Source: an uncultured Pseudomonadota bacterium (GTDB lineage Bacteria > Pseudomonadota > Alphaproteobacteria > Rs-D84). Taken from it: a stretch of 64,000 nucleotides of DNA. Shown here one piece after another: positions 2,730 to 63,295 of this stretch; position 1 is the first letter of the stretch; every line of letters starts with the position of its first letter. The notes beneath the pieces were generated by a model. It made no database searches. It saw nothing but the letters and a program-made list of their open reading frames with translations, and was not told the DNA's origin. The stretch lies in contig CASFWA010000003.1 of NCBI GenBank assembly GCA_949298405.1, positions 62,001-126,000 of the forward strand, given 5' to 3'. The position numbers were made by a program, and so were the translations under genes.

Positions 2730-5228
2730 TTATAAGATTGGTGGGAAACAGTCACCGCCAGTTTCAGGGCAGCAATTAAATCCTTGTTCTCCCATATCTG
2801 TATAGATTTCACCAGGGCAGCATCCATATTCATCAGGCAATGTGCCGTTTTCATCACAAGTAATAACATTAACAACAGTTTCTTGTGTTTCTGCTTCTGG
2901 TGTTTGGAACGGATTTTGGATAGTCCCGTCTTCGTTATAGGTTAATCCAAGTATATCTTCATTATAAGATTGACTGCCTGAAATACCTGTTAACCCAGTT
3001 CCTGTGTTGAAGGAAGAACCTGTACCATAAGTATTTTGGAATGTCTGTTGTTGATTTTGGTACACTGCATCTTGCTTTGCATTGTTTATAGCCTGATAGC
3101 TGGTTGAACGGCAATAGAATTCAACTGTACTAAAACTATAACCTGCAGCATTTATTTCTGATAAGGTTTTGCTATCTGTTTTTGCTTTATATACCCCGCT
3201 GTCGTCCAGTTCGCACCATTGTGCCATATTGAACGAACGTACCTGACCAACCCAAGAACCGTCAGTGTAATCAACAAATACATTGTTTGCCCAACTATCA
3301 TTACGTTGATTGCGTGGGTCTTGTAAACCGGTTGCTTTTTGCATGTTTTGAACAGAGCACTTTTTAGAGTTATCATTACCGCAAGTAATAACAAGGTCTG
3401 TTGGTGAAAATACTGTAATACGAGTTCCCGCAGCAATTGAGAAAGGTGGAACTGTATTTTCCATCATATCAACCAGCAATTTTTGTGCAACTTGATTCCA
3501 TGCAGTTATAATTTCGTTCTTTGCGAGTTCAGAAGAACGAACTGTACCAGATTGAACAACAGTATTATTATCCAAATCGATTTGATTAATAAATGTGTCT
3601 GATATAGGTGCAATCAAATTAACTGCCGCAGGAACAATTGCAGTTAGCATTGGCATAACAAACTGTTCAACATAGTCCGTGCTACCGTATCCTGGAACAC
3701 CGACGCGTCCTTGAGAGTCACCAGAAAATGGAGTATTTGTGCCTTGGAAGTTAAATTCTACACCGTTTGGTAAAACGAATTGATACCAATTGATATTCAT
3801 ACGCCCAATTGATTTATAGGGGCCTGGTAATTCGCCGTTAAGATAACCCAACAGAAGTGTACCTGCAGGAATAACAACAGTTCTGCCGTTATCTGAATAT
3901 ACGTTTCTATCAACTGTTGCACGAACTGGTAAAGATTGACTTGTGCATTTCCCACTTGCATCCATTGAAGTACAATAAATTGATGGGTCTGCGCGAACTT
4001 CTGACACAATTGTTGCAGGAATTGGTTTATATTGACGCAGAACAAATGTTCTATCAAATGGGTCAGAAGAATATGTTGCGGTCTTGCTACTGGTACCGAC
4101 AATAACATCACCACTTTCAGGGATTTTAACAACTCGGCCTATTGTACCTGTTCCCGCGGTTGCACCTGCCTGTGCAGTAGATAATGCGGCTAATTCTTCG
4201 GATGTTAATTGGCGTGCTTTATTTACTTCTTTTTTTGATGCAGGATTTGATAACTGTGGCAGTGCACCGTTAGTTATTGCGACATAACCGATATGTTCTG
4301 CGTCGGTACCGATTTTTTTACCTGTATCTTTAATATCTGTGATTATACCATTGTCTGGGTTATAAACACCTGTTGGTGTGTCACAGTTTTTATCGGAAAA
4401 CGGATGAAAGTAATAAGCACCTGCTTCTGGGCGAATCCAACCACTTTGTACGCCAGATAAGTTATATCCAGGAAATGCGAAATCAGAGCAAGATTCTGCT
4501 GGTGTGGTATCTTCGATTATTTCTGCTACAACTGGGGCAGAAATTTTCTTTTCTTCTGCAAAAATATTTGTTGGCGCAATAGTTTCAATTTCTTCTTTTA
4601 TTTCCTGTTTTACAGGTGCTGTCACGTTTGGTTCTGGAAGAGTCGTTTCTTCAACAATTTCTATTGTTTTAACTTCTTCTTTCTTTGGTGCAACAGTTAT
4701 TTCTTCTACCGCTTTTGTTTCGACGACAGGTTCTTCTGCGCCCAGGACAAGAATAATCTTGCTTGTTTTTTTCATTACATCTGGTTCGTTTATGCCACGC
4801 CAATCTATATAAAGCTCGGTCGTTTCAGTTTGTGCTTTTGTTGTAGGTTGGTATTCTAAAATTATTGTACAAGAGTTATTTGTATCAATTTGCCCCATCC
4901 GGGTACAAGTCTGTTGCGGGTCAAGTAATCCTGCAATATTTTTATCTCGTCTAACATCCAAGATTTTTGCTGGTGCACTAGCGGATATTTTAACAGTTTG
5001 TTTTTCTTTTTCACCAACCAGAGTATTTCCCCAGTTAACAGAATCCGGGGAAATATTCAAAACAACTGCGACATCATCAGAATTTTTAATTTCTTCTTTT
5101 TCTTTATTTGTTAACAACAGAGTCAGAAGAATAAGCACGACAATGAAAGCAGCTGCTAAAAGCAACCATTGAATATGTTTTGGAGTATTTTTGCGTAAAT
5201 CTGAAAACTGTTTTTTGATATTGTTCAT
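2730..5228 (-). CDS. virB10: VirB10/TrbI-family type IV secretion core protein with ASH-like domain and Cys-rich tail
   Basis: VirB10-type proteins span inner membrane and periplasm and form the outer-membrane core with VirB7/VirB9. Order of parts in this 832-residue protein: cytoplasmic N-terminus; one membrane helix (about 20-42); an Ig-like domain with the ASH/Hydin pattern (about 55-150: VNWGNTLVGEKEKQTV, then GLLDPQQTC, SCTIILEYQP); an acidic Pro/Glu linker (about 165-245); an unassigned segment; the TrbI/VirB10 beta-barrel domain (about 410-640) with RNVYSDNGRTVVIPAGTLLLGYL, the SQGRVGVPGYGS turn, the Ala/Pro-rich antenna helix and FSIAAGTRITVFSPTDLVI; then a long C-terminal extension with six Cys in the last 45 residues. 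ATG 5228 is preferred to GTG 5231. DotG (type IVB) is the alternative, but the barrel motifs read as VirB10. Confidence 0.85.
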   Translation of the reverse strand: MNNIKKQFSDLRKNTPKHIQWLLLAAAFIVVLILLTLLLTNKEKEEIKNSDDVAVVLNISPDSVNWGNTLVGEKEKQTVKISASAPAKILDVRRDKNIAGLLDPQQTCTRMGQIDTNNSCTIILEYQPTTKAQTETTELYIDWRGINEPDVMKKTSKIILVLGAEEPVVETKAVEEITVAPKKEEVKTIEIVEETTLPEPNVTAPVKQEIKEEIETIAPTNIFAEEKKISAPVVAEIIEDTTPAESCSDFAFPGYNLSGVQSGWIRPEAGAYYFHPFSDKNCDTPTGVYNPDNGIITDIKDTGKKIGTDAEHIGYVAITNGALPQLSNPASKKEVNKARQLTSEELAALSTAQAGATAGTGTIGRVVKIPESGDVIVGTSSKTATYSSDPFDRTFVLRQYKPIPATIVSEVRADPSIYCTSMDASGKCTSQSLPVRATVDRNVYSDNGRTVVIPAGTLLLGYLNGELPGPYKSIGRMNINWYQFVLPNGVEFNFQGTNTPFSGDSQGRVGVPGYGSTDYVEQFVMPMLTAIVPAAVNLIAPISDTFINQIDLDNNTVVQSGTVRSSELAKNEIITAWNQVAQKLLVDMMENTVPPFSIAAGTRITVFSPTDLVITCGNDNSKKCSVQNMQKATGLQDPRNQRNDSWANNVFVDYTDGSWVGQVRSFNMAQWCELDDSGVYKAKTDSKTLSEINAAGYSFSTVEFYCRSTSYQAINNAKQDAVYQNQQQTFQNTYGTGSSFNTGTGLTGISGSQSYNEDILGLTYNEDGTIQNPFQTPEAETQETVVNVITCDENGTLPDEYGCCPGEIYTDMGEQGFNCCPETGGDCFPPIL

Positions 5229-5249
5229 CACTTATCCGCGCTTATAAAA

Positions 5250-6788
5250 CTATTGAATTCTAACAACATTGCAACTTGCACCGCTAAACTTCAACAATTG
5301 GTCACAAAGTTTTTGTGCTGTTTCTATATCAGACAGTGGCCCTATACGCAAGCGGTATAAGCGTGCCGCAGAAGATTCTGCGCCTAATTCACCAACCCCT
5401 TGTTCATCGACCGCAAAGAATACCATGTCCTTATATGGCGCAAGTATTCCTTGGCCGTCTTCGCCACTAAATTTTGCAAGCAGATTAGCCCAGTAATCAT
5501 CCAGTGCTTTTACAGATGTATCTGACTTTAATTCAACCGCCACACCTGTTTGATTAGATGTTATCAAAGGTATATTAGATTGTGGCAAGAAAGAACCCGC
5601 AGTTAGACGTTCTGTTGGAATCATAGACAAAGCAGTATTGCTGCTTGTCCCATAAGTTGCTGCTGGAACACCATAACCAGCAGGCATATAATAACCCGAT
5701 GTGCCTGTTCCCATTGCTGTATTCCCAACAAACATAGGTGTGGTTGTGTAATTGCCAACAGAAGCATTTATTGCAGATAAATCTGCATTGTATGCGATAT
5801 TGTTCAGTGACTGTCCGGACATCATGCTTTGCGCAACATTTGCTTCTGCCAGTGCCATTACGGATGCGGTGTCCGCAATCAAGAATGGTTTTTCGCGTTT
5901 CTTTATGCAGACGATGCGTTGCCCACTACGCAGAACCATATCACCAACTGCTTCAACAATCAGCAAGCGCCCATCTTCACCATCTGTGCGGAAACCGACT
6001 GGGGATTCTCCGCCTTCAACCAGCAGTGATACAACAGGACGTTGCGTCATAGCAATTACTTTGTCACCAAAGTCAATATAAGTAAAGATTCTGTCACGCC
6101 ATACACGTTCGGGTGCGATCACATAATCATCTGGGTTTGGAACAAATATGTCTAAATCAAATCTAAATTCGGACGGGTCTATCTTCATAGACTTAATCCA
6201 ACCATAGTCTTCACCGTCAACCCCAACTGTGCTACTTGAAGAAGATGATTTTTTGAATATTGATGATGAACCATTAGAATTTACGGCATTACCCGATGAG
6301 ACTGGTAAAGAAGCATTGCCATCTAAAACGACATCTACTTGTGAATAAGTAATTTCGCTAGAATTAGATGGTTCGCTGCGAAGATAGAATATATACTGAT
6401 TTCCAGATTTACCAGTGACAATAAAGTTAGTATCAGAACCTTGATTGCTGGATTCTGGGGTAATTAGAATAGTATTTCCACCTTGCTGCGCTTCAAATGT
6501 AAAAAGCCCCTGATTGCCGACTACGGCATCTGCAATCTGTTCGCCATTTGGCAAACTAATCATAGTGACCATGCCATTACGAAGTTTTACGGGCAAAACG
6601 CTACCTTTTGACCAACTTAATTGGGCGTATCCAGGCTTTGTACTGCCTGCGGCCATATTTGCATTTGGATTATCCCAAGCACTTTGTACACCATAAGATG
6701 TCGCAGAAGCGTTAGTATTGTACAACGCGCACAATGCAACTATGCAGAATATGGATACATTTAACTTTATTGCTTTCGAGAACGTCAT
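5250..6788 (-). CDS. virB9: VirB9/CagX-family type IV secretion protein fused to a C-terminal SPOR domain
   Basis: VirB9 forms the outer-membrane ring of the secretion channel with VirB10. The 512-residue protein has a Sec signal peptide (about 1-29), a VirB9 N-domain (about 45-150: RNGMVTMISLPNGEQIADAV, TNFIVTGKSGNQYIFYL), a Ser-rich linker, and the VirB9 C-domain (about 215-300: ERVWRDRIFTYIDFGDKVI, ending MVLRSGQRIVCI). Family members normally end here. This one continues with a Gly/Tyr/Thr linker and a last stretch (about 435-512: YRLRIGPLSDIETAQKLCDQL then SGASCNVVRIQ) that has the SPOR peptidoglycan-binding pattern. GAAGGAAAAGGC precedes the ATG. Next gene in the operon is virB10, 21 nt on. 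Confidence 0.87.
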   Translation of the reverse strand: MTFSKAIKLNVSIFCIVALCALYNTNASATSYGVQSAWDNPNANMAAGSTKPGYAQLSWSKGSVLPVKLRNGMVTMISLPNGEQIADAVVGNQGLFTFEAQQGGNTILITPESSNQGSDTNFIVTGKSGNQYIFYLRSEPSNSSEITYSQVDVVLDGNASLPVSSGNAVNSNGSSSIFKKSSSSSSTVGVDGEDYGWIKSMKIDPSEFRFDLDIFVPNPDDYVIAPERVWRDRIFTYIDFGDKVIAMTQRPVVSLLVEGGESPVGFRTDGEDGRLLIVEAVGDMVLRSGQRIVCIKKREKPFLIADTASVMALAEANVAQSMMSGQSLNNIAYNADLSAINASVGNYTTTPMFVGNTAMGTGTSGYYMPAGYGVPAATYGTSSNTALSMIPTERLTAGSFLPQSNIPLITSNQTGVAVELKSDTSVKALDDYWANLLAKFSGEDGQGILAPYKDMVFFAVDEQGVGELGAESSAARLYRLRIGPLSDIETAQKLCDQLLKFSGASCNVVRIQ

Positions 6789-6815: not shown

Positions 6816-7496
6816 CTACACACCAGTATCAGCCAAATACCCAGTGTTTAAGGGGTCGCCGTTGCCAGATTCTATTTCGTATTCAGAAATCCGAATGCCC
6901 AATGGGTTATTTATACGGTCAGCCCACTTTATTTTAGTGTTATCTTCCATATCTAATTTTACTTTTATTTTATACTCTTTTTTGTCCATCTGTCTATTAC
7001 TATCTGCACAGAAATACCTAAAAGTTATCGCGTATGTATCATCTGTTCGTGGCTCGATTGCGTTAGTATCAAATTCAACAGAACAAGAAAATTCAAAATC
7101 TGGCAAGTCCGACATCCATGCATTCCACATATCTGTCTGGATAAAATCGTTATAAACTTCTTGCGTTGACCAAGTATAAACCACACCTTCTGAATCATTG
7201 TTCCATTTTGTGCGCATAACGTTAGCATTTGGCACGATTTCATTTCTTGCCTTGATATATTCGCGAATGAATGCTTTTTTATAATTTTCCAGATTTTCAT
7301 CTGTTGGGTTAAGTTCGCGTAATACAACTTGTAAATCGTTTTTGGGAACAGTCATCAAAAAGAAGACCTGGGGTCTGTTTAACGGGAACATATTGTACAA
7401 AGTGAATACCATAGTTCCCAACACGACCAGCATTGCCGCAAAGACAAATGTCATCAGTCTAGATAGTAAAATTGGCGGTTCTACGCGGTCTTGCAA
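6816..7496 (-). CDS. virB8: VirB8-like type IV secretion inner-membrane protein
   Basis: 226 residues: a short cytoplasmic N-terminus, one membrane helix (about 14-37) and a periplasmic NTF2-like domain. Family signs are the KAFIREYIKARNEIVPN helix, a Trp/Tyr-rich middle (YTWSTQEVYNDFIQTDMWNAW) and the strand NPLGIRISEYEIE close to the C-terminus, matching the NPxGF/I..xY signature of VirB8. VirB8 bridges the inner-membrane complex and the VirB9/10 core. It is the first gene of a virB8-9-10 operon (gap to virB9 27 nt), with its own sigma70-like promoter upstream. DotI/IcmL of type IVB systems is related and is the alternative. Confidence 0.8.
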   Translation of the reverse strand: MQDRVEPPILLSRLMTFVFAAMLVVLGTMVFTLYNMFPLNRPQVFFLMTVPKNDLQVVLRELNPTDENLENYKKAFIREYIKARNEIVPNANVMRTKWNNDSEGVVYTWSTQEVYNDFIQTDMWNAWMSDLPDFEFSCSVEFDTNAIEPRTDDTYAITFRYFCADSNRQMDKKEYKIKVKLDMEDNTKIKWADRINNPLGIRISEYEIESGNGDPLNTGYLADTGV

Positions 7497-21472: not shown

Positions 21473-21495
21473 ATTGTATTTCAATGGAGAGAAAA

Positions 21496-24207
21496 ATGCT
21501 TTTTATTAGAAAAATTCCTTTTTGTGTGATTGCTTTTTACGGTGTTTCCGCATATGCAACAGATGTATCAGATTTTAATTCTTTTTACAATGCGTACAAA
21601 ACAAATGCTGCGCAAAATGATATAACGATAACAGCAGACATAACGGCAAATCGTTTGGTTGGCGTTGCAGGAAGTGTGATTACAAATATTGATGGAGGTG
21701 GGTATAAATTTATAGGGGATAATTACAATGGTTTTACTGTTTCAAGTGGAAGCAGTATATCTTTTGCAAATGGTGGTAGTTTTAGTGTGTCTGGGCAAAG
21801 TGCAACGATAGAGAATTCTATTAATGGTTTTTATCAGTCGGGGCAGGGGGCAGTGTTTTCAAATGCAGGGGGTGATTTAACAATAGAAAATTCTGCTTTT
21901 AGTAATAATTCTTCGCGATATGGTGGCGGAGTATTTTACCAGACCAACAGCGGTAATTTAAATATATCGAATAGCGCATTTCAGAATAACAGTGTGACGC
22001 GTAGTAATGGTGGCGTAATTTATAATCAGTACAGAACGACTGCAAATATAGATGGAAGTTATTTTCAAGAAAATTCTGCCAGTAATTATGGTGGGGTAGT
22101 ATTCAATGATGGTAATTTAACAGTTGCGGATAGTGTTTTTAGTTCCAATACTGCGGCAAGTGGGGCTGCTATATATAATTCAAATACAGTCACAATGAAT
22201 AATGTGTCTTTTATAGATAACATAGGTACAGAAAGTGTGGGTGCAGTTTATACAACAGGTATGATGAATATAACAAACGGAACTTTTGAAAACAATAGGG
22301 GCGAAACAGGTGGCGCAATAGGTGTTTATGGAATTGTTGGGGATGGTTTATATACTGTTGTAAAAGATTCTACATTTACGGGTAATAGCGCAACATATGG
22401 TGGGGCGCTTTATAACTGGGACGATGCGTATATAATAGATAGTAGTTTTACAAATAATACCGCAACAGATAATGGTGGTGCAATTTTTAATATAAATGCA
22501 CTGTTTTTAATTGCACAGAATTCGGATATAGAATTTACAGGTAATGCTTCTTCTGGCGAGTCTAATGCGATATATACTTCAGAAATGTTAGGGTTAAATG
22601 CATCGACAGATTATCAGATTGTTTTTAACGACAAGATAACGGGTTCAGGTTCTATAGTAATAAATAATCCGTATACGTTGGAAGAAAGTGTTATGCCGAC
22701 AGGTGGAACAGTATTGCTTAATGAAGATATGAGTGATTTTAGCGGTGATGTAACAATAGCATCAGGAACAGTTCTGGTTAGTGATAGTGGGAAGTTTTTT
22801 GGGGCAACCGATTTGCAGGTAACAGGTGGGGTTTTAGATTTAGGAACTACGAATACCACAGTAAATACCGCAACATTTAGTTCTGAATCTACATTAAAAT
22901 TAAATATTCAAGATGCAGATAATTATGGGTATTTAACAGCAGATACATTTACAATATCTGATGGTGCATCATTAAGTGCAGTTTTAGGTTCTGATGCGAT
23001 GCAGGGTAGGGACTCGTTGCAAGTGCAGTTATTGCGTAGTTCTGCAGAGATAACCGATAAATTTTTACCTGATATAGATAATAATATTTATACATTTCTA
23101 AAGTTGGGGAATGGTTGGTATGAGGTACTTCAAGAAAGTACGTTTTTGGATGTTATAAGAGAGTCTGGTGGGTCGTTAAATAACGAGAATACAGCGATTA
23201 GTTGGCAAGATATGTCAGGAATTGATAGTGATGTTGCGGTTGCAGTGTCTAATTTATTAGATGCGCTTGTTCAAACTAACGCGCCAGAATATATAAAGGC
23301 GTTGACTGCGCTGGCGCCAACACCTGCACCATTGATGCAAATACTTGGTAATTCTTATGCGGATAGATTTAATAGTTTGATTTCTTTGGACGCGCGTAAT
23401 GAGAGTAGAATAGGTAGCGGAAAACTGTGGGGTGCTGCAATCGGTGGTGGCGGAAGATTAAAAGAAAGTGATAATTATGCAAACTTTGATATATACGGTT
23501 ATGGTTTTGGGTTGGGGGCAGAGATAGAAATAAGCGATTGGATGCTGGGGGTTGCGTATACTTATCAATATGATAGATTAAAAAGTTGGGCCAGAATTAT
23601 ACGTGCACCAACAAACGGTGGTGGGGTGTACGCAAAATATAATAATAAAAGCTTTATTTGGAATAATTCCGCAAGTTTTTTTTATAGCGATTTAAGTGAA
23701 ACTAAAAATGTAGCAGGATTACAATTGTATGATGACATAAATGTTTATACGACTAGTGTTCAGTCAGATGTTGGTTATGAAATGCCTGTTTATGATTTTC
23801 TTTTTACGCCAATGATTGGGGCAAAATATACATTTATGCACAGAGGTAATTCATCAGATACCGCAGGTCAAGAATTGTCTTCTGTGGATTTAAATTTTTT
23901 AACCTCGTATGCGAAACTTTCTGCGGAATATGAGATAGAGTATTCTAATGGTTTTAGCATGACTCCGCAGTTAGAAGTTGGTGGTTCGTATGATTGGCAT
24001 GCAGATATGGACGATATCGTTGTTGCGATAGGTGGTAATAAATATGCTATTTCTTCTGAACGGTTGCCCAGATGGCAGATGACAGCAGGTATTAAACTTA
24101 ATATGTGCTTTGGAAGTTTGTACAAATTATCAATAGGTGCAGAAGCATCGTTTAGAAATGGGTATAATGATTATACAGGCATGATAAAAGGCAGCATACG
24201 TTTTTGA
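21496..24207 (+). CDS. Autotransporter with Pmp-like beta-helix passenger
   Basis: 903 residues. A signal peptide (about 1-21, ending SAYA), a passenger of degenerate repeats (about 60-360), a spacer, and a C-terminal 12-strand-type autotransporter barrel (about 630-903) ending in an aromatic residue (GSIRF). The passenger repeats carry FxxN and GGxI/V motifs (FSNNSSRYGGGVF, FTGNSATYGGALYN, FTNNTATDNGGAIFN), the pattern of chlamydial polymorphic membrane proteins and a right-handed beta-helix. ATG 21496 is chosen over 21484 because GGAGA lies between them at the right distance. Likely surface adhesin; ligand unknown. Confidence 0.85.
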   Translation: MLFIRKIPFCVIAFYGVSAYATDVSDFNSFYNAYKTNAAQNDITITADITANRLVGVAGSVITNIDGGGYKFIGDNYNGFTVSSGSSISFANGGSFSVSGQSATIENSINGFYQSGQGAVFSNAGGDLTIENSAFSNNSSRYGGGVFYQTNSGNLNISNSAFQNNSVTRSNGGVIYNQYRTTANIDGSYFQENSASNYGGVVFNDGNLTVADSVFSSNTAASGAAIYNSNTVTMNNVSFIDNIGTESVGAVYTTGMMNITNGTFENNRGETGGAIGVYGIVGDGLYTVVKDSTFTGNSATYGGALYNWDDAYIIDSSFTNNTATDNGGAIFNINALFLIAQNSDIEFTGNASSGESNAIYTSEMLGLNASTDYQIVFNDKITGSGSIVINNPYTLEESVMPTGGTVLLNEDMSDFSGDVTIASGTVLVSDSGKFFGATDLQVTGGVLDLGTTNTTVNTATFSSESTLKLNIQDADNYGYLTADTFTISDGASLSAVLGSDAMQGRDSLQVQLLRSSAEITDKFLPDIDNNIYTFLKLGNGWYEVLQESTFLDVIRESGGSLNNENTAISWQDMSGIDSDVAVAVSNLLDALVQTNAPEYIKALTALAPTPAPLMQILGNSYADRFNSLISLDARNESRIGSGKLWGAAIGGGGRLKESDNYANFDIYGYGFGLGAEIEISDWMLGVAYTYQYDRLKSWARIIRAPTNGGGVYAKYNNKSFIWNNSASFFYSDLSETKNVAGLQLYDDINVYTTSVQSDVGYEMPVYDFLFTPMIGAKYTFMHRGNSSDTAGQELSSVDLNFLTSYAKLSAEYEIEYSNGFSMTPQLEVGGSYDWHADMDDIVVAIGGNKYAISSERLPRWQMTAGIKLNMCFGSLYKLSIGAEASFRNGYNDYTGMIKGSIRF

Positions 24208-61716: not shown

Positions 61717-61947
61717 AAACCGTAGGTTAAAAGGCCGTCGGTAAGAAGAGTTTCGGATGGGTAGCAGAGCGGGCAATAGCGGCGGTCTTGCATACGAGTC
61801 AGCGAGACGAGCATAGCGAAGTCGAGAGTGAACGAGTGGTGAGCAGCACCGATAGGTGCGATAAGCGAACAAAACCGTAGGTTGAAAGACCGTCGGTAAA
61901 AAGAGTTTCGGATGGGTGGCAGAGCGGTCGAATGCGGCGGTCTTGAA
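61717..61947 (+). repeat. Direct repeat: tRNA-Ser leader and 5' half in two copies
   Basis: Unit A (61717-61792) and unit B (61872-61947), offset 155 nt, match at about 67 of 76 positions by eye. Unit B is the leader and first half of the functional tRNA-Ser; unit A reaches the anticodon arm and then diverges (CTTGCATA instead of CTTGAAAA). The 79 nt between them are not repeated and show no gene. Confidence 0.85.
61755..61792 (+). pseudogene. Truncated tRNA-Ser (5' half only)
   Basis: GGATGGG acceptor 5' strand, D-arm (TAGCAGAGCGGGCAATAGC) and the start of the anticodon arm are present, but anticodon loop, variable arm, T-arm and CCA end are missing. Cannot form a tRNA. Confidence 0.75.
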
Positions 61948-61999
61948 AACCGTTGTGGGGGCAACTCCACCGGGGGTTCGAATCCCTCCCCATCCGCCA
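61910..61999 (+). tRNA. tRNA-Ser (TGA)
   Basis: 90 nt with acceptor GGATGGG / CCCATCC, anticodon loop CTTGAAA (anticodon TGA, 61944-61946), the long class II variable arm (GTGGGGGCAACTCCAC), T-arm GGGGGTTCGAATCCC-type, discriminator G and encoded CCA. Confidence 0.96.
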
Positions 62000-62012
62000 G
62001 GAATAAATAAAT

Positions 62013-62041
62013 CCCCACAAAATCCTTGTGGGGTTTGTTTT
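62013..62041 (+). terminator. tRNA-Ser terminator
   Basis: CCCCACAA-AATCC-TTGTGGGG followed by TTTGTTTTT. Confidence 0.85.
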
Positions 62042-62044
62042 TGC

Positions 62045-62065
62045 CCCAGAAACTGGGATTTTTTT
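62045..62065 (+). terminator. Second terminator after tRNA-Ser
   Basis: CCCAG-AAA-CTGGG followed by ATTTTTTTA. The region 62066-62160 that follows shows no supported gene. Confidence 0.65.
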
Positions 62066-62161
62066 ATGCACAACGGTACCAGTGTATACTCACCATTGTA
62101 CCAATCACGCCAAAAATCACCTCTGAACATACCTTGCCCAAAATCCCGATGCCAGTTTATA

Positions 62162-62190
62162 TTGCTTTTTATCGTAATTTGTGGTATAAT
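62162..62190 (+). promoter_or_regulatory. Strong promoter upstream of the toxin gene leader
   Basis: TTGCTT (62162-62167), 17-nt spacer, TATAAT (62185-62190) with extended -10 TGG. It is followed within 20 nt by the first of two terminators. Confidence 0.7.
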
Positions 62191-62206
62191 AATCAGCAAG
62201 AACAAG

Positions 62207-62230
62207 GGCAACATTTTGTTGCCGTTTTTT
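62207..62230 (+). terminator. Terminator / attenuator in the toxin gene leader
   Basis: GGCAAC-ATTTT-GTTGCC followed by GTTTTTTATT. A transcript from the promoter at 62162 would be only about 35 nt long here. Confidence 0.8.
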
Positions 62231-62233
62231 ATT

Positions 62234-62258
62234 GCCCCGCCACCTGCGGGGCTTTTTT
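62234..62258 (+). terminator. Second terminator in the toxin gene leader
   Basis: GCCCCGC-CACCT-GCGGGGC followed by TTTTTTAT, 21 nt before the toxin gene ATG. Confidence 0.85.
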
Positions 62259-62278
62259 ATAACACAGGGGAAAATAAT

Positions 62279-63295
62279 ATGGCTACAAATTGGGGAGATG
62301 TCACTTGGAATGAATATGGGGAATTAGTATTGGATATCTATAAACATCCGTCAGAATCAAAAGATGATGCAACTAATAAACCGAAACATACATATAAAGA
62401 GATAGATTGTGGTGGTGAATGTGGCGGGTGTGTTGCGTTGGTTGTTGATGGCGAAGTGGTGTCTGGTCCACCATTCCATCCGAACTGTAAATGTTCTTTG
62501 TCCGCAGAAGATATTGCGGATGCACCTGAACAAGAGTCTAATTTAGGTAATCCGGTTGGACCCGACAGAAATTCTGAACCGAGAGATGTTAAATGGTTGA
62601 AAGATGCTCTAAATAAACTTGGGTTTTATGAGCCCGATACCAGAGCCGGCGAAACGCCAGATGATTTAAATGAATATCCCAACCAGAATTTGTTTGATGG
62701 AATTAATAAATTTCAGCGCGAACATGGATTGCCCGAACGCGGAACTGTGAAGCCGGGGTATCAAACAGAAGCCAAAATAAACCGCGAATTACAACAACAA
62801 ACAAAAGAACCAAAAGCTGATTTTGAATACAATGGTTCAACGTTTAAAGGACCAATCAATGCAAAAGATAGCCAATATGCAGTTTTTGATGGAAAATCGT
62901 TGACCATTTATGACGATGGCGAAAAAGTTGCTGCATTTGCTGGGGTGTCCGGCAAGCCCGGATATCAATCTCCAGAATATCAAAATAAAACAGATACTGG
63001 GCCGATTCCACAAGGAACATATGTTGCGAGAAAAAAAGATTTTCAAAATAGAGATGATTATGGCCCTATAAAAAAATATACTTCGTGGCCTGGTGGTGAA
63101 CATGGTTGGGGAAAACATAGAGTATGGTTGGAACCCTCTAAAGAAACAAATACGTTTGGTCGAGGTGGTTTCAGTATTCATGGTGGCGAGGAGCCCGGTT
63201 CTGCTGGTTGCGTTGATCTAACAAGTGAAATGCCAGGGTTTGCAGATTGGTTCAAAAAGAATGGAAAAGACTTGATTATTAAGGTAAAATACTGA
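62279..63295 (+). CDS. Multidomain protein: Mu-F-like motif, PG-binding domain, Tlde1-like L,D-transpeptidase toxin domain
   Basis: 338 residues, no signal peptide. Part 1 (about 40-75) has Cys44, Cys48, Cys51 and HPNCKC (67-72), like the C..C...HPNCRC motif of phage Mu F-type head morphogenesis proteins. Part 2 (about 100-172) is a peptidoglycan_binding_1-type three-helix domain (VKWLKDALNKLGFYEPD, FDGINKFQREHGL). Part 3 (about 183-338) resembles DUF2778/Tlde1, with His301 (FSIHGG) and Cys311 (SAGCVDL) as the catalytic pair and GPIPQGTY, TNTFGRGGFSI around them. Tlde1 enzymes damage target-cell peptidoglycan. Start at 62279 follows AGGGG; an upstream frame crossing the tRNA-Ser was rejected. 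Confidence 0.78.
   Translation: MATNWGDVTWNEYGELVLDIYKHPSESKDDATNKPKHTYKEIDCGGECGGCVALVVDGEVVSGPPFHPNCKCSLSAEDIADAPEQESNLGNPVGPDRNSEPRDVKWLKDALNKLGFYEPDTRAGETPDDLNEYPNQNLFDGINKFQREHGLPERGTVKPGYQTEAKINRELQQQTKEPKADFEYNGSTFKGPINAKDSQYAVFDGKSLTIYDDGEKVAAFAGVSGKPGYQSPEYQNKTDTGPIPQGTYVARKKDFQNRDDYGPIKKYTSWPGGEHGWGKHRVWLEPSKETNTFGRGGFSIHGGEEPGSAGCVDLTSEMPGFADWFKKNGKDLIIKVKY

Follow-up and report, generated by a model that had tools for sequence, protein, structure and literature searches.

The SPOR fold normally serves to hold bare sugar chains of the cell wall where a cell divides. With denuded glycan bound, the SPOR domain of RlpA makes side-chain contacts through Q270, R302 and the pair R309/R311, the site being bordered by F274 (PMC6895207). 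Q270 is the conserved glycan contact, and mutation of this glutamine in FtsN and DamX was found to hurt septal localization; SPOR–glycan contacts are mostly made by the main chain, and sequence is poorly conserved among the SPOR domains that bind (PMC6895207). VirB9 belongs to a different machine, the type IV secretion system (T4SS), whose core complex has an outer layer built from at least 14 copies of the VirB9 C domain (PMC12857230). Extra domains in VirB7, VirB9 and VirB10 are a known theme of these systems (PMC9371333). The fixing and placing of T4SS rings in the cell wall is a poorly understood question, and a wall-type domain within VirB9, kept through a whole bacterial order, offers a direct handle on ring placement.

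Such a protein is encoded in the 64,000-nucleotide stretch of DNA analysed here (the window), whose host belongs to Rs-D84, an order of gut bacteria that have reduced genomes and are thought to be partner-dependent (PMC12306168). The features of the locus are as follows:

2730..5231, minus strand: VirB10, 833 aa, TrbI (PF03743, E 6.5e-16; Pfam), downstream neighbour of virB9
5250..6788, minus strand: VirB9 (CagX) with a C-terminal SPOR-derived domain, 512 aa, ATG start (open reading frame and Pfam)
5250..5546, minus strand: SPOR domain, residues 415-512 plus stop, with invariant W433, R481, G483, C495 and C506, and E419 at the usual Gln position
5550..5888, minus strand: linker, about residues 301-413, rich in Gly, Ser, Thr, Tyr and Asn, poorly conserved
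5898..6623, minus strand: VirB9 N- and C-terminal regions (CagX, residues 56-297; Pfam)
6816..7496, minus strand: VirB8, 226 aa (PF04335, E 9.5e-14; Pfam), upstream neighbour of virB9

The original prediction had placed complete VirB9 N and C regions before a linker, and this was borne out: CagX (PF03524, Pfam-A) spans both regions at E 9e-22 (residues 56-297), and the linker follows at about residues 301-413. The NCBIfam VirB9 model matches the 512-aa protein at E 1.8e-14, under its equivalog cutoff. Linker and SPOR domain together account for the roughly 210 extra C-terminal residues beyond the VirB9 regions. The C region of VirB9 is the best conserved part, with 98% identity in the genus and 76% in the order. 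Across the order, identity is 16% for the linker versus 35% for the SPOR domain, indicating that the tail is under selection while the linker drifts. The full-length structural model is poor (pLDDT 57.5, pTM 0.32), and residues 280-413 were modelled at pLDDT below 50.

The gene lies between virB8 and virB10, forming a virB8-virB9-virB10 operon, and the same 0.9 Mb genome carries virB3-virB4 (L169:10997-13769) and virB11 (L171:9389-10381) elsewhere. VirB4, VirB8, VirB9, VirB10 and VirB11 are all present, as in a VirB/VirD4 (P-type) T4SS. An I-type (Dot/Icm) DotI-DotH-DotG cluster, the first guess from gene order, was rejected, as Pfam gives VirB8, CagX and TrbI. No TrbL (PF04610) match for VirB6 was obtained in the genome; VirB6 may be too divergent for the model. 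VirD4 was not found in the whole assembly. Since a VirD4 of about 745 aa is encoded by each of the nine congeners tested, its absence is taken to reflect an assembly gap or recent loss; a VirD4-less, ComB-like uptake system was dropped for the same reason. The VirB10 of the operon weakly matches a choice-of-anchor-D (Ig-like) domain at residues 58-133, close to the N terminus, and has a cysteine-rich C-terminal tail, the end of which is common to a congener (L189). Genes for PilO, T2SSE and T2SSF of a type IVb pilus-like system occur a few kb from virB3-virB4 (L170:2519-7183). The window also holds, at 61916-63295 on the plus strand, a 459-aa open reading frame that combines a Tlde1 domain with a weakly matched peptidoglycan-binding domain and a segment rich in cysteine, and that could be a secreted wall-acting protein. 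At 21484-24207 on the plus strand lies a 907-aa protein that has repeats of the Chlamydia polymorphic membrane protein type and, by eye, an autotransporter-like C terminus.

The tail of this VirB9 is confirmed as a SPOR domain on a complete VirB9. Pfam-A detects SPOR (PF05036) over residues 472-510 and profile positions 38-76 at E 1.3e-4, with 22.6 bits where the cutoff is 21, and the last 88 residues alone match SPOR at E 7e-6. Among 32 VirB9 homologues, 30 match SPOR at E<=0.01. Across 31 genomes, matches of the VirB9 tails mostly begin at about profile position 36 and those of SPOR domains in other proteins mostly at position 2; the confinement of the Pfam match to the second half of the profile is attributed to divergence of beta1 and alpha1. 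When a profile was built from the SPOR domains of other proteins only, four VirB9 tails scored 15-21 bits, against 7.5 for the best of 9,000 shuffled tails.

A search of PDB sequences with the SPOR profile found no SPOR entry, and a comparison of folds was therefore needed. A domain-only AlphaFold2 model from 32 sequences (mean pLDDT 78.7, pTM 0.68) recovered the whole fold, with elements, counted from residue 408, at E8-16, H19-34, H43-48, E49-56, E68-78, H81-95 and E100-104. The predicted order, β-α-(α)-β-β-α-β, is that of the βαββαβ SPOR fold. In a Foldseek search of the PDB with this model, which returned 1171 matches altogether, the RlpA SPOR structures 6i09 and 6i05 led (probability 1.00 each; TM by target 0.68 and 0.65), followed by the DedD SPOR structure 6ztg (0.99). 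No match reached E<=0.001, the best being 1.3e-3, so the fold claim rests on the rank of these three structures, on their probabilities and on the agreement with Pfam. Thus, both the profile and the structure prediction agree with the SPOR identity that had been proposed from sequence; the length needed a small correction, the domain comprising about 98 residues (415-512) and not 75. That the tail is a chance resemblance to SPOR, or an artefact of a frameshift joining two genes, might be suggested by a single-sequence Pfam score barely above its cutoff, and is exceedingly improbable given 30 matching homologues of 32 and SPOR structures as the top fold matches; this reading had already been refuted by one reading frame conserved across many genomes, unbroken in nearly every homologue.

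Regarding distribution, 59 related genomes were searched, from the genus Candidatus Enterousia (GTDB order Rs-D84) plus outgroups. A VirB9 homologue was found in 52 of the 59, and in all 52 the match extends, in one or two pieces, into the SPOR region; the related sequences are mostly metagenome-assembled, and because the genomes are relatives such counts do not represent independent events. Two near-complete congeners (G022 and G333) gave no VirB9 match, yet both have VirD4, and G022 also has VirB4. Among 385 genomes sampled across the class, VirB9 with a SPOR tail was detected in 16, from seven other alphaproteobacterial families (f8, f27, f37, f53, f56, f78 and f95), with a virB8-virB9-virB10-virB11 cluster in the loci read, and in a phylum sample of 399 genomes all matches at 1e-15 were alphaproteobacterial. 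The fusion, for which a search for CagX plus SPOR architectures had been proposed at the outset, is thus no peculiarity of a single genome but is widespread within one alphaproteobacterial lineage. VirB9 relatives classed as SPOR-less (L156-L165) showed no hidden SPOR domain when tested with the profiles. In the other families, some VirB9-SPOR genes adjoin giant VirB10 genes encoding 2149-2831 aa (L176:9847-16890, L177:18-8510, L178:10882-17529, L180:2083-8529 and L190:10010-16588), and at two loci (L175 and L179) the VirB10 region is apparently split over two large open reading frames.

A version of the tail that is not annotated as such was also found in VirB9 proteins from plasmids of two Sphingomonadales, Erythrobacter aureus and Sphingosinicella sp. 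BN140058. These two tails scored 27-30 bits, against 11 for the best of 8,000 shuffled tails; Pfam makes no SPOR call in either. By eye, they carry Asp at the Gln position. The plasmid systems share the VirB9 tail with the present locus, and their virB genes are accompanied by VirD4 and a MobA/MobL relaxase; they differ in being transfer-type clusters, in having a shorter linker and in being annotated only as TrbG/VirB9. The SPOR tail therefore also occurs in transfer-type systems, and the cultured plasmid hosts, Erythrobacter and Sphingosinicella, render its role testable. The tail of a Microvirga plasmid VirB9 looks SPOR-like by eye, scored no better than shuffles and was not counted.

An IQ-TREE phylogeny of the VirB9 core, with the tail excluded and the root at the midpoint, places all 47 SPOR-bearing rows on one side of a branch with support 100/100. 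When the plasmid proteins were added, the SPOR-bearing rows and Microvirga, the latter on a long branch, formed one group (98/93); the need for two label changes in this tree is due solely to the non-scoring Microvirga tail. This clustering fits one ancient fusion, which is the simplest reading: the fusion probably arose once in an alphaproteobacterial T4SS lineage and was then kept. Under a midpoint root, loss of the tail in the other group is an alternative history that the tree allows.

To compare the residues of the putative binding groove, 32 VirB9 tails were aligned with SPOR domains that belong to other proteins of this genome and its relatives. Of these domains, 30 could be read; another two loci yielded no readable segment and lie outside the 30. 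At the position of RlpA Q270, all 30 SPOR domains of other proteins have Gln, and the VirB9 tails have Glu (31/32) or Asp (1/32), the residue of the present protein being E419. The Gln on beta1 that is typical of glycan-binding SPOR domains, and that is not part of the Pfam definition, is thus absent from the VirB9 tails. The F274 position is aromatic in 30 of 30 SPOR domains of other proteins, and the aromatic is missing from 32 of 32 tails. The Arg pair on β3, R479/R481, aligns with RlpA R309/R311: R481 is present in all 32 tails, and R479 is Arg in 25 and His in 7, so that the pair is largely kept and, judged by these two positions, so is the basic patch on the beta sheet, a SPOR trait. W433, L429, L480, G483, C495 and C506 are invariant among the VirB9 tails, and a VRxQ motif at the very end of the chain is conserved. 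From these patterns the groove looks re-specified and not merely decayed; conservation of an acidic residue over many families argues for a re-purposed groove over decay. The anion site could be closed by pairing of E419 with the two arginines. The exchange of Gln for Glu or Asp also represents a natural experiment on the range of ligands of the SPOR groove.

The original prediction had further suggested that a ring holding peptidoglycan by such a tail could be anchored to the wall or placed at the septum. The step from SPOR to denuded septal glycan fared less well: with an acidic residue at the Gln position and no aromatic in any of the 32 tails, and with both residues kept in all 30 other SPOR domains, septal placement is doubtful, although the ring may still be anchored in some way to the envelope or the wall. 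In its canonical form, the suggestion is that main-chain contacts and the Arg pair let the tail bind denuded glycan, so that the ring is tied to wall at the septum or to wall that has just been cleaved. It draws on the predicted SPOR fold, on the alignment of R479/R481 with the RlpA arginines and on three SPOR proteins of the usual kinds in the same genome (a SPOR-only membrane protein, a D-Ala-D-Ala carboxypeptidase and RlpA), which indicate that SPOR biology operates in the cell. Against it, the residue lost is the most conserved glycan contact, the one whose mutation impairs the septal localization of FtsN and DamX (PMC6895207). Since most SPOR contacts are made by the main chain, the Gln-to-Glu change may leave glycan binding intact, and for this reason canonical binding, although unlikely, keeps an appreciable minority of the weight.

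The reading somewhat favoured here is that the protein is the VirB9 of a VirB/VirD4-type T4SS and carries a re-specified SPOR module on a long flexible linker that docks the ring to a partner other than denuded septal glycan. The architecture, the predicted fold, the conservation, the residue swap and the phylogenetic clustering are directly supported; the copy number, the docking role and the partner are inferred. By analogy with other systems, the assembled ring would present many copies of the module, typically 14 or more, and because the SPOR domain is kept while the linker of about 110 residues drifts, the ring may be pictured as encircled by a collar of such modules on tethers. In each module, the groove would have been re-specified, with the glycan-reading Gln now Glu or Asp beside an Arg pair that is retained, and with loss of the aromatic stacker. 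Because both residues are lost, denuded septal glycan is a less favoured ligand than a protein or an altered wall: the module would most likely dock the ring onto an apparatus or envelope protein, or onto wall of a different chemistry. A more specific version, held only tentatively, is that a multivalent SPOR collar with the Gln-to-Glu/Asp groove might read a partner bound to the wall, or wall of another chemistry, and so provide the ring with a wall address that is not shared by division proteins. The tail might instead be a structural piece of the outer-membrane complex, packed between ring subunits or onto VirB10 and making no contact with the wall. Extra domains of VirB7, VirB9 and VirB10 are a recurring route of T4SS ring diversification (PMC9371333), and the giant VirB10 relatives in other orders make expanded rings plausible. 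However, a long, poorly conserved linker modelled at low confidence suits a tethered module better, even if ring proteins can have long linkers, and such a packed ring piece is considered improbable.

How does this VirB9 compare with known systems? As had been anticipated, no VirB9 with a SPOR domain was found described in the open-access literature, absence from which is not proof, and the word 'SPOR' does not occur in a 2025 T4SS review. Like VirB9/TraO/CagX (PF03524) of P-type T4SSs, the present protein has complete N and C regions and the gene order virB8-virB9-virB10, and the VirB9 profile recovers X. citri VirB9 (6gyb), TrwF and TraO; unlike it, these known proteins include no SPOR-bearing member found described. 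The expanded outer-membrane complexes of the Dot/Icm and Cag systems are alike in having enlarged VirB9 and VirB10 homologues with added domains (PMC9371333), but what has been added there is domains of other kinds, or further subunits such as DotK, SPOR not being reported in the texts compared. With the SPOR domains (PF05036) of RlpA, FtsN, DamX and DedD, the VirB9 tail shares the βαββαβ fold and the Arg pair on beta3; the Gly-Pro after beta3 is common to the tail and known SPOR domains, and its C..C pair is common to FtsN-like SPORs of the same genus. It differs from known SPOR domains in its longer alpha1 region and in being borne by a secretion ring, not by a division or wall enzyme. A wall-related domain within an outer-membrane ring protein is also found in the AMIN domains of the pilus secretin PilQ, which are of unrelated fold and family and belong to another machine.
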